IMG/VR virus record: IMGVR_UViG_3300045125_000065
Span: 1-55,811 of that record
DNA length: 55,811 nt
Origin: a virus
Reading direction: 5' to 3' (one strand)
The position numbers and the translations under genes were made by a program. Every line of letters begins with the position of its first letter. Within the stretch, counting starts at the first letter, position 1. The notes beneath the pieces were generated by a model that worked only from the letters and a program-made list of their open reading frames with translations, did not search any database and was not told the origin of the DNA. This document shows, one piece after another, positions 2,089 through 4,239 of the stretch.

Positions 2089-2295
2089 CTATGCGATTCC
2101 CCAAGGACACCCATCCCTAGAGTTGCATTCGGTGATGACGTACCAGCTATCTCTAGTTGAGTACGGATCGGAGACTTGGATACTGCGCGGGCAGTCTGAA
2201 CAGCTTGCGGGCCGCGGGCCGGGGGCATCACATTTGCCCGATCCGGCGCGGTGGGGGAAGGCGTAGGCGGTACAGGTGCAAGGTTCTTTTTTCAT
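2089..2295 (-). CDS. Small cysteine-rich protein, 68 aa
   Basis: Start at 2295 (MKKEPCTCTAYAFPHRAGSG). The longer in-frame ATG at 2322 lies inside the leader hairpin and is rejected. Cysteines occur as CTC, GSGKC, CSDC, TEC and DGC, suggesting a metal-binding knuckle. It is driven by its own promoter and conserved 5' hairpin leader. Function unknown. Confidence 0.6.
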   Translation of the reverse strand: MKKEPCTCTAYAFPHRAGSGKCDAPGPRPASCSDCPRSIQVSDPYSTRDSWYVITECNSRDGCPWGIA

Positions 2296-2313
2296 TTTGT
2301 TTCTTTCGCTGTC

Positions 2314-2327
2314 CTGCGACATTGCAG
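2314..2327 (-). promoter_or_regulatory. Conserved 5' leader hairpin, copy 1
   Basis: CTGC-AATGTC-GCAG followed directly by GACAGCGAAAG and then the start of the 2295 gene. Copy 1 of 4: this stem has 4 bp because one pair is an A-C mismatch relative to copy 3. The hairpin would sit at the very 5' end of the mRNA made from the promoter at 2335-2363. Confidence 0.6.
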
Positions 2328-2334
2328 TGATTTA

Positions 2335-2363
2335 ATTTTATGTTGCACTAGGCGCTGTGTCAA
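2335..2363 (-). promoter_or_regulatory. Sigma70 promoter (P1)
   Basis: Minus strand TTGACA (2358-2363), 17-nt spacer, TAAAAT (2335-2340): a near-consensus host-type promoter. It lies between a strong terminator and the cysteine-rich gene. Confidence 0.8.
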
Positions 2364-2375
2364 TGCCCACTTCGC

Positions 2376-2400
2376 AAAAAATCCCGGCGCATGGCCGGGA
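2376..2400 (-). terminator. Strong intrinsic terminator
   Basis: Minus strand TCCCGGC-CATGC-GCCGGGA followed by TTTTTT, directly after the stop of the 123-aa gene (2407-2778). It insulates that gene from promoter P1. Confidence 0.85.
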
Positions 2401-2406
2401 CGTTCT

Positions 2407-2778
2407 TTACGCAGTGAGCTTGTAGGGCTTGTTCCACTTGCCGACGTTGATTTCGGTGTACCAACCCACATGGAAATAATCCGCCTGTGTGTCGCTTTCG
2501 TCGAAATTTCCAATGTTCATTGCTTCGCGCACCTTGAGCAGAAATTCTCGCGCGATGCCTTCGTGGTGATCCTTGATCCAATAGACATTGATGCTTACCG
2601 ATCCTGACCGCTGCGCGCTTTCATGGGCGTTCGCCAGGAAATCAATCGGACCTTCGGTGATGTTGAGGCAGAGCGTGCTGTGGTTGCGGACGGACAAGGT
2701 TGCCTTGATACCGTATTGCTTGCAGATCGCCTTGATCTGGGGGCGAGATGCGCTCTTTTCGCTGTTGATATAAGCCAT
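2407..2778 (-). CDS. Hypothetical protein, 123 aa (LPD29-like fold possible)
   Basis: It starts MAYINSEKSASRPQIKAICK, has a central SINVYWIKDHHEG and ends YFHVGWYTEINVGKWNKPY. The alternation of a helix, short strands and an aromatic-rich C-terminus resembles small phage proteins sometimes grouped with the large polyvalent protein-associated domain 29, but this is recall only. It has its own promoter, hairpin leader and terminator, so it is a monocistronic unit. Confidence 0.6.
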   Translation of the reverse strand: MAYINSEKSASRPQIKAICKQYGIKATLSVRNHSTLCLNITEGPIDFLANAHESAQRSGSVSINVYWIKDHHEGIAREFLLKVREAMNIGNFDESDTQADYFHVGWYTEINVGKWNKPYKLTA

Positions 2779-2800
2779 GATTTTTCCCTCTTTCGCTGTC

Positions 2801-2814
2801 CAGTCATGCGACTG
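2801..2814 (-). promoter_or_regulatory. Conserved 5' leader hairpin, copy 2
   Basis: CAGTC-GCAT-GACTG followed by GACAGCGAAAGAGGG and an ATG. A 5-bp perfect stem whose base pairs differ from the other copies while the flank GACAGCGA is identical. Confidence 0.65.
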
Positions 2815-2821
2815 TGTTTAA

Positions 2822-2851
2822 ACTTTAACTTACATAACCCGGCCGTGTCAA
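2822..2851 (-). promoter_or_regulatory. Sigma70 promoter (P2)
   Basis: TTGACA (2846-2851), 18-nt spacer, TAAAGT (2822-2827); a 17-nt spacing to TTAAAG is also possible. The -35 box sits in the loop of a CCCGGC...GCCGGG hairpin that follows the upstream gene, so terminator and promoter may overlap. Confidence 0.7.
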
Positions 2852-2870
2852 GCCGGGCGTGCAGATTTAT

Positions 2871-3035
2871 TCAAAAACTTATTTTGATATTGTCGGGGTC
2901 TTGCGCATGCACAACGATCTCAATCACGCCTTGGTCGGCCGTATGGATGAGGATGCAGCGCCAGTTGATGTCGACAGACTCTAGAATCTCGCGGATTTCG
3001 ATGCGCACGACGTTTTGAATGTCGGTTGTGACCAT
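2871..3035 (-). CDS. Small acidic protein, 54 aa
   Basis: MVTTDIQNVVRIEIREILES then HTADQGVIEIVVHAQDPD. It is preceded by GAGGAG 9-14 nt upstream of the ATG and by promoter P3 with its hairpin. Not recognised; the strand-helix pattern suggests a small folded protein. Confidence 0.6.
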   Translation of the reverse strand: MVTTDIQNVVRIEIREILESVDINWRCILIHTADQGVIEIVVHAQDPDNIKISF

Positions 3036-3055
3036 GATTTTTGCTCCTCGCTGTC

Positions 3056-3069
3056 CTGCAACATTGCAG
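3056..3069 (-). promoter_or_regulatory. Conserved 5' leader hairpin, copy 3
   Basis: CTGCAATGTTGCAG, a perfect palindromic hairpin, followed by GACAGCGAGGAG, in which the Shine-Dalgarno sequence directly abuts the conserved flank. Confidence 0.65.
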
Positions 3070-3076
3070 TGATTTA

Positions 3077-3105
3077 ATTTTGTATTAACTTTTAATGCCT
3101 GTCAA
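3077..3105 (-). promoter_or_regulatory. Sigma70 promoter (P3)
   Basis: TTGACA (3100-3105), 17-nt spacer, CAAAAT (3077-3082). The -35 box overlaps the last codons of the upstream 74-aa gene. Confidence 0.7.
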
Positions 3106-3316
3106 TGCTTTTTTGCAGCCCCAACACCATGTCAAGCGCAGTCTCCGTTGGCGCGCTCATCACGTCTTTCTCGATCAGCCACCAAAAATTCACGGGCAAC
3201 CACTTTCCCTCTTTAAAGACCTCAACGCATCCGTTCCGTCGAATCCTGTACCGTTGGGCGCCCGCGATCTCTCGCAGCTTTTCTCGCAACGCGCGTTTTC
3301 TTTGCTCAGCGTTCAT
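3092..3316 (-). CDS. Hypothetical protein, 74 aa
   Basis: Basic N-terminus (MNAEQRKRALREKLREIAGA) then KEGKWLPVNFWWLIEKDV. ATGA overlap with the upstream gene at 3313-3316. Not recognised. Confidence 0.6.
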   Translation of the reverse strand: MNAEQRKRALREKLREIAGAQRYRIRRNGCVEVFKEGKWLPVNFWWLIEKDVMSAPTETALDMVLGLQKSIDRH

Positions 3317-3528
3317 TGCGTAATACCCGAAGGCGGAATCGTGAAGGTTTCAGTGTGCCCGCTGCGGCTTTCCCAGGCGCGCAATTCAATGATTGGTTGG
3401 CCGCAGATGTCCAGCGCGCGTTCTGCCTCCATTGCCCACGCGCGCAGCTGCTCCGCATTTACTGGCGGCCGCTTCGAGTTCTCGCGCAACCAACGATTGA
3501 TAAGTGTCATGCCGCGTGCATTGACCAT
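3313..3528 (-). CDS. Hypothetical protein, 71 aa
   Basis: Helical N-terminal half (RPPVNAEQLRAWAMEAERAL) and a short beta C-terminus. Coupled by overlap to the next gene. Not recognised. Confidence 0.6.
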   Translation of the reverse strand: MVNARGMTLINRWLRENSKRPPVNAEQLRAWAMEAERALDICGQPIIELRAWESRSGHTETFTIPPSGITQ

Positions 3529-3542
3529 GATGTTTTCCTTTC

Positions 3543-3833
3543 TTAACGGCTCGTGACCTTGACCGAATAAACCGCCGCGGTTTTCGTGTGCGCGACGATG
3601 ATTGCTTCAGGAATCGACAGCTTCTTAGCTATCGACTTCCAGTCAATAGTCGAGCGGTTGCTTTCAATGTAAGTCGCGCGGAACTGCGCGCCGTCGAACT
3701 GCTTTTCGCCCGACAGGCTAGCCTGCTCTTTGATCGTGTTTTTGATTTCGTCGGCGCGCTTGGTGAGCGCGTCAATCTGGGCGAGGAGATCGCCAAGGGT
3801 GTCAATATCGGTGCGGGTGATGGTGGTGTTCAT
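3543..3833 (-). CDS. Hypothetical protein, 96 aa
   Basis: An N-terminal coiled-coil-like helix (DTLGDLLAQIDALTKRADEI) followed by AQFRATYIESNRSTIDWKSI. Proteins with this pattern occur among replication-region accessory genes of other phages, without known function. First gene after promoter P4. Confidence 0.65.
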   Translation of the reverse strand: MNTTITRTDIDTLGDLLAQIDALTKRADEIKNTIKEQASLSGEKQFDGAQFRATYIESNRSTIDWKSIAKKLSIPEAIIVAHTKTAAVYSVKVTSR

Positions 3834-3854
3834 AATCTTGCCTCGTTCGCTGTC

Positions 3855-3868
3855 CGGTCAAGTGACCG
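3855..3868 (-). promoter_or_regulatory. Conserved 5' leader hairpin, copy 4
   Basis: CGGTC-ACTT-GACCG followed by GACAGCGAACGAGG and an ATG. Same geometry as copies 1-3, with compensating base changes in the stem. Confidence 0.65.
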
Positions 3869-3875
3869 TGTTCAA

Positions 3876-3905
3876 ATAATAAGTTACACGAACGAGGCGC
3901 GTCAA
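3876..3905 (-). promoter_or_regulatory. Sigma70 promoter (P4)
   Basis: TTGACG (3900-3905), 18-nt spacer, TATTAT (3876-3881). It follows the Ref-like nuclease gene directly. Confidence 0.65.
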
Positions 3906-3912
3906 GTTGTTT

Positions 3913-4239
3913 TTAATCGTTCCTCTTTAAGCGCTGCTTCACCTCTTCGAGCAATTCAAGCTCGCTCGTGCCCCAGAGTTTTGCGAAGCCCTTCGTGCCT
4001 AAACCATGTACGCCCGTATTGCCTCGGTGGTGCTCGGGGCATAGGGGGAGCGTGTCGTAATGGCTCGCGCGCCTTGCTGCGCCCGTTCCCGCGCGGATGT
4101 GGTGCACTTCAGCCGGCGTTCCTGAAAACCCCATTCGCTCACAGATGATGCAGCCGAGCTCGGCTACTCTCGACAGGTATCGGCGCTCATCTTTTGTCAA
4201 AAGCGTCCCCAAACCCTCTCGCGATGCGGTCGATTTCAA
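3913..4239 (-). CDS. Ref-like RecA-dependent HNH nuclease
   Basis: 108 aa. Contains a treble-clef HNH arrangement: C30 and C33 (LGCIICERMG), HHIRAGTG at 46-53, H60, LPLCPEHH at 65-72 and H78 (GVHGLG). This matches phage P1 Ref-type recombination-enhancement nucleases, which nick DNA at RecA filaments; the family assignment is from motif recall. It overlaps the upstream gene by 53 nt and lies downstream of the RusA gene, consistent with a recombination module. Confidence 0.75.
   Translation of the reverse strand: MKSTASREGLGTLLTKDERRYLSRVAELGCIICERMGFSGTPAEVHHIRAGTGAARRASHYDTLPLCPEHHRGNTGVHGLGTKGFAKLWGTSELELLEEVKQRLKRND

Follow-up and report, generated by a model that had tools for sequence, protein, structure and literature searches.

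Why does a phage place a short hairpin, spelled differently each time, directly behind several of its promoters? The question arises from a virus record of IMG/VR, analysed here over its whole length of 55,811 bp (the window, to which all coordinates refer) and containing tailed-phage genes (terminase, portal, tail proteins, RusA and a DnaB-like helicase). A preliminary description of this DNA had reported four promoters, P1 to P4, each followed by a 14-nt hairpin of preserved loop length, an invariant GACAGCGA and a Shine-Dalgarno sequence, and had taken the changing but still pairing stems as the sign of an RNA element where the message begins, perhaps one that stabilises short mRNAs. Our analysis of this locus and its relatives suggests that the virus probably uses the hairpin as a cap-like shield against message degradation.

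Four promoter-hairpin units in a block of small genes

The four units lie on the minus strand, within a block of small genes adjoining the replication genes. A consensus promoter scan returned five promoter-like sites, where whole-region shuffles led us to expect 1.6, and four of the five are P1 to P4, exactly where they had been placed before. In each unit, a sigma70 promoter is followed by the hairpin, GACAGCGA, a purine-rich Shine-Dalgarno sequence and the ATG of a small ORF, an order that the preliminary description had recognized as far as the Shine-Dalgarno. Between the -10 hexamer and the hairpin are 7 nt ending in CA. The position 7 nt past the -10, the usual place of a transcription start, is A in all four units, and the hairpin runs from +2 if this conserved A is taken as +1. 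The features are as follows.

2335..2363, minus strand: P1 promoter, TTGACA (2358-2363), 17 nt, TAAAAT (2335-2340), 11 of 12 matches
2314..2327, minus strand: P1 hairpin CTGCAATGTCGCAG, predicted +1 A at 2328; covariance model E 1.1e-9
2306..2313, minus strand: P1 tail GACAGCGA
2089..2295, minus strand: P1 gene, 68 aa from ATG 2295 (MKKEPCTC...); weak phrog_5016
2822..2851, minus strand: P2 promoter, TTGACA (2846-2851), 18 nt, TAAAGT (2822-2827)
2801..2814, minus strand: P2 hairpin CAGTC-GCAT-GACTG, predicted +1 A at 2815; -6.3 kcal/mol; model E 2.6e-7
2793..2800, minus strand: P2 tail GACAGCGA
2407..2778, minus strand: P2 gene, 123 aa; phrog_10415, function unknown
2381..2401, minus strand: terminator-like hairpin and T run closing the P2 unit
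3077..3105, minus strand: P3 promoter, TTGACA (3100-3105), 17 nt, CAAAAT (3077-3082)
3056..3069, minus strand: P3 hairpin CTGCA-ATGT-TGCAG, predicted +1 A at 3070; -7.7 kcal/mol; model E 1.2e-8
3048..3055, minus strand: P3 tail GACAGCGA
2871..3035, minus strand: P3 gene, 54 aa; no family
3876..3905, minus strand: P4 promoter, TTGACG (3900-3905), 18 nt, TATTAT (3876-3881)
3855..3868, minus strand: P4 hairpin CGGTC-ACTT-GACCG, predicted +1 A at 3869; -9.1 kcal/mol; model E 2.4e-7
3847..3854, minus strand: P4 tail GACAGCGA
3543..3833, minus strand: P4 gene, 96 aa; weak phrog_6244; orthologues elsewhere have the same leader slot

All four hairpins do span 14 nt, with stems CTGC/GCAG (P1), CAGTC/GACTG (P2), CTGCA/TGCAG (P3) and CGGTC/GACCG (P4), but their build is not uniform: P1 has 4 bp and a 6-nt loop with an inner A.C mismatch, and P2 to P4 have 5 bp and a 4-nt loop. 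The preserved loop length of the preliminary description holds only locally. The single-sequence MFE fold of P1 adopts an alternative pairing of UGUC in the hairpin with GACA in GACAGCGA; no such pairing with the tail was seen in the P2, P3 and P4 copies. ATG 2295 is the probable start of the P1 ORF; the upstream ATG, at 2322, falls within the hairpin. The transcripts had also been proposed to be monocistronic. This agrees with P2, whose gene ends at the terminator-like hairpin (2401-2381), but three ORFs (96, 71 and 74 aa) lie between P4 and P3, and thus not every unit is clearly monocistronic.

GACAGCGA taken alone is weakly enriched (6 copies in the window against 1.8 expected, a count attained in 2 of 100 shuffles). 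When 18 copies, four of them the window's own, were made into a covariance model, it matched exactly the four copies in the window, with E from 1e-9 to 3e-7. The combination of promoter, hairpin and tail found here is not a product of chance.

The hairpin recurs in related phages with different tails

Scanning viral-contig DNA for a loose form of the element returned 103 contigs. Among unrelated contigs, the matches with all five positions paired mostly stand behind a TTGAC-17/18-TAnnnT promoter (L014/L050/L093, L046, L042, L035 and L024), and those with fewer pairs are chance matches lacking promoters. When promoter and tail were demanded and pairing was left free, about 30 further viral-contig copies were recognisably the same element, and all of them were paired. 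Among the relatives is one named record, MW202545. Phages picked through their RusA gene have the element too, with still other stems. In the genome contigs, only chance matches were seen by inspection among the matches listed.

The tail behaves differently from the hairpin. A scan with the P1/P3 hairpin without its tail placed the hairpin at start sites of many phages, followed by quite different sequences such as GTTTATTAGGAG, GTAACGATACAAGGAAG and GAACGTAAAAAGGATC. Across other phages, tails begin with GTAAC, GTTTAT, TTTTATTTG or RACAGCGA; the supposed invariance of GACAGCGA holds in the window and its nearest relatives and breaks down elsewhere. Since the same hairpin is found before different tails, the hairpin is the core and GACAGCGA a lineage-specific linker, which we rejected as the defining motif. 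Identical hairpins also precede different genes in related phages (e.g., CTGACACATTGGTCAG), and one and the same gene is preceded by different hairpins across phages.

Phages of Sinorhizobium, Agrobacterium, Klebsiella and Methylophilales encode relatives of the P2 protein (phrog_10415) at 35-50% identity. No element precedes the homologues of the P2 gene in T4-like and jumbo phages, and the IMG/VR homologues of the P2 protein that were examined are without the hairpin leader.

The hairpin occupies one slot behind the promoter

Strict promoters preceding an ORF were used to measure where stems begin; a loose promoter scan gave 336 at offset 7 against about 260, with heavy background, and was set aside for the strict scans. 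In family contigs, a strong stem starts at offset 7 behind 69 of 123 strict promoters, compared with about 2-6 at each of the offsets 0-5. Unrelated viral contigs gave 14 of 156 at offset 7, with a slight rise at 6-7 that perhaps reflects leftover family members, and bacterial contigs gave 9 of 73 with no peak. Among 102 elements, which were chosen by pairing, +1 is A in 88 and the discriminator is 7 nt in 80. Element-bearing loci in the strict scan mostly hold one to three copies, and one locus holds four. With 7-8 nt between the -10 and the hairpin, the stem-loop is predicted to begin within 1-4 nt of the 5' end, as stabilising stem-loops of the ompA/papA kind do.

The same slot can be followed in front of a single gene. 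Relatives of the P4 gene number hundreds; the 80 best loci were chosen from the protein alone, the hairpins playing no part, and together with earlier loci gave 88 unique leaders. In nearly all 88, a sigma70-type promoter is followed by a hairpin in this slot; by inspection, the hairpin is there in all but three (L304, L306 and L401/L402, in which none was seen). The first of these, PQ492659.1 of Limnohabitans phage DC33, is filed as an inovirus, an odd assignment for a circular genome of 39 kb that holds many small genes. With promoters called without the downstream sequence and dinucleotide shuffles as the control, the best hairpin starts at offset 7 after the -10 in 40 of 88 leaders (3.2% in shuffles) and at offset 8 in 9 of 88 (5% in shuffles), and mean hairpin energy is -5.8 versus -2.9 kcal/mol. 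Leaders that fall off the slot mostly have added outer pairs or a mis-called -10. An automatic stem cut-off (44 of 88) was dropped as too strict, most of its misses showing a hairpin, and the first paired base of the MFE fold is confounded as a metric by untranscribed flanks.

Stems in these orthologous leaders include CTGAC/GTCAG, CTGC/GCAG, CTGG/CCAG, CGGTC/GACCG, CCAAC/GTTGG, TCAAC/GTTGA, CTCGC/GCGAG, TGCAATC/GGTTGCA and ACGCC/GGCGT. Hairpin length across phages ranges from 12 to 27 nt and loop length varies; some stems, at about -3.5 kcal/mol, are weak, and weaker than those of classic stabilisers. The search of related phages, a check proposed in the preliminary description, thus came out positive: the slot recurs, and the 5' end of the hairpin keeps a fixed distance from the -10.

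Pairing is kept while the sequence changes

In 18 distinct 14-nt hairpins, a set picked for fitting one length, 94.4% of cells are paired against 71.4 (sd 3.4) after shuffling, and the covariation score is 0.614 against 0.239 (sd 0.043), with 0 of 500 shuffles reaching either the score or the pairing; shuffles ignore kinship and relatedness inflates covariation, so these figures are not probabilities. Sliding the partners by 1-3 columns lowers the covariation score to 0.009-0.124. Altogether 21 cells are altered on both sides: the outermost C-G pair is constant, and pairs 2-5 each show both-side changes. RNAalifold independently returned the same five pairs. In a test anchored on the tail, 40 of 57 rows have all four outer pairs and 235 cells are paired against a shuffled maximum of 202, mis-registered duplicates being among the rows; an earlier version of this test was contaminated by chance bacterial matches.

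Both the covariance model and the covariation analysis thus gave positive results, and stems in homologous copies stay paired. The variety of stems in orthologous leaders is a stronger argument than the shuffle statistics. Through covariation beyond all shuffles and many stems before one gene, pairing rather than sequence is seen to be kept, which supports the original view of an RNA element located at the start of the message. Shape and position of the stem-loop are conserved; its sequence is not.

Sequence features around the element

Several other features were observed near these promoters. Many family promoters (leaders L357, L395, L399, L305, L310, L314 and L337) carry a palindrome spanning the spacer and the -10, such as GTTTAAC-N5-GTTAAAC, TCTAAC-N5-GTTAGA or ATTAAC-N5-GTTAAT; these vary symmetrically and may be operators for a phage regulator. 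In P2 (2840-2859), L093, L141, L147 and L167, a GC-rich inverted repeat encloses the -35 in its loop, for example CCCGGC-TTGACACG-GCCGGG or GGGG-TTGACAG-CCCC; a terminator or operator may have fused with the promoter there. RACAGCGAA recurs at varying distances, often right before the start codon. In addition, (A/G)ACAGCGAA stands directly 5' of start codons in L332, L329, L035 and L046 (e.g., CAGCGAAGGACAGCGAA-ATG), and this adjacency suggests that the motif is part of the ribosome site and not of the hairpin.

A candidate shield for the 5' ends of early mRNAs

We infer from this arrangement that the conserved A is +1, that the element is active as RNA rather than as DNA, and that it protects the mRNA. 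The explanation that we favour, and consider somewhat better than an even bet, is that the 5'-terminal stem-loop with its one unpaired nt shields early phage mRNAs from RppH/RNase E-type decay. A host-sigma70 promoter would give a transcript opening with one unpaired A, followed directly by a short stem-loop from +2 to about +15 and then by an unstructured purine-rich linker holding the Shine-Dalgarno sequence. Because the triphosphate end would have only one unpaired nt, RppH-type conversion and 5'-end-dependent RNase E entry would be hindered, and the short mRNAs of the early region would therefore last longer, while the open linker would keep the ribosome site free.

RppH prefers single-stranded 5' ends and RNase E relies on such ends too, which is why 5' structures can stabilise a message, and RppH of B. 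subtilis requires at least two unpaired nt (PMC3997798). Against protection, the share of E. coli mRNAs for which RppH matters is only about 10% (PMC3997798), the MFE fold of P1 differs, and some stems are weak. A broader version, conceivable but unlikely, is that the hairpin is a general 5'-end identity tag for this group of phages: any short stem-loop at +2 would let early mRNAs escape a decay system, driven by host or phage, that clears other mRNAs, and the tag would be the structural counterpart of a cap for the early regulon.

Alternative explanations

Conservation covers a stem-loop one nt from the predicted 5' end but neither its sequence nor its loop or tail, which is a poor fit to the target of a sequence-reading protein, to an operator and to a terminator. 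The hairpin might still be bound by a phage or host RNA-binding protein that recognises shape over sequence, marking phage mRNAs or regulating translation. Its recurrence on several genes of one phage and the sub-groups with common loop motifs such as GCAAT..GC would suit such a protein, but stems, loop sequences and loop sizes are highly variable, also inside a single phage, no loop motif is common to all, and most such sites need no fixed distance to +1, so that we regard this explanation as rather unlikely. We are similarly doubtful of an action on RNA polymerase or the ribosome, with the hairpin aiding promoter escape, working like HK022 put, or freeing the ribosome site from the leader. 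The hairpin does sit directly behind the initiating polymerase, and the linker past it is purine-rich and mostly unpaired; put sites, however, are longer RNAs of specific sequence, the four window copies show by inspection no consistent pause motif at the proper distance, and no U run follows the stem.

It is improbable that the unit is a mobile promoter cassette resembling the PeSLs of T4-type phages, spread by recombination, with a hairpin that is incidental or serves shuffling. The identical hairpins before different genes would be expected of a cassette, but the strongly divergent hairpin sequences give homologous shuffling no help and yet keep their pairing, and the orthologous P4 gene retains the slot while its stems change. 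More improbable still is that a phage repressor uses the palindrome as a DNA operator that overlaps +2 to +15. Inverted repeats at promoters usually are operators; here, however, half-sites are unlike between copies in one genome (CTGC, CAGTC, CGGTC) and take many forms across phages, the arms are 2-17 nt apart with no shared half-site or fixed spacing within or between phages, and G-T pairs occur (e.g., CGGTC/GATCG). Chance or a terminator by-product is scarcely credible: 4-5 bp stems are common and P1 and P3 score as terminator-like on the opposite strand, but the offset-7 peak (69 against 2-6), the flat bacterial controls, covariation exceeding every shuffle and the lack of a T run on the opposite strand of most other copies all speak against it.

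Comparison with known systems

The preliminary description knew of no named element like this one, and we found none either: the window has no Rfam match at gathering score, a permissive Rfam search of 2250-3950 gave one chance-level match with E <= 5, and the papers searched describe no phage early-gene leader that recurs and is defined by its structure and its position at the start site. Searches for motifs that rely on sequence miss such elements, and caution is advisable there.

A phage mRNA opening with a stem-loop linked to stability is known from the T7 gene 10 leader. That leader has a fixed sequence and belongs to T7 RNA polymerase promoters, whereas the present element combines host-type sigma70 promoters with variable stems. 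PeSLs (promoter early stem-loops) of T4-type phages likewise join an early promoter to a stem-loop in several copies per genome; they are called promoter-terminator motifs in the title of reference 37 of PMC4503421. Compared with PeSLs as that title presents them, our hairpin lies after the start site, has no coding-strand U run (GACAGCGA or GTAAC follows instead) and is no terminator. In cluster K mycobacteriophages, SAS/ESAS are short repeats just upstream of the start codon in numerous non-structural genes; some have inverted repeats, and their function is unknown (PMC3203893). They resemble the phage element in lying near start codons but are defined by the start codon and conserved in sequence (the 13-bp GGGATAGGAGCCC; 17-bp inverted repeats with a consensus) (PMC3203893), whereas the transcription start defines our element, and what it conserves is structure. 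The 13-mer GGGATAGGAGCCC was absent beside the start codon in the leaders read, whose tails are GACAGCGA, GTAAC or other.

In its proposed mode of action the element is like the leaders of the ompA and papA mRNAs of E. coli, which have a stem-loop at the extreme 5' end with few or no unpaired 5' nt (PMC3997798, its references 92-95) and leave the ribosome site free (PMC3997798). There, the structured leaders are larger and each belongs to a single host gene; the phage element, in contrast, is a minimal hairpin of 12-27 nt, found on several early genes of one phage, with stems that change freely between copies. Free change within a fixed slot provides a large natural set of variants for testing protection, and this set could show how much 5' pairing, and how many unpaired nt, protect an mRNA. 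That 5'-terminal hairpins stabilise individual bacterial mRNAs is known already; here, evolution has apparently put one hairpin, at exactly one position, on many early genes of an uncultivated phage group, which suggests a simple counter-decay strategy in phages.
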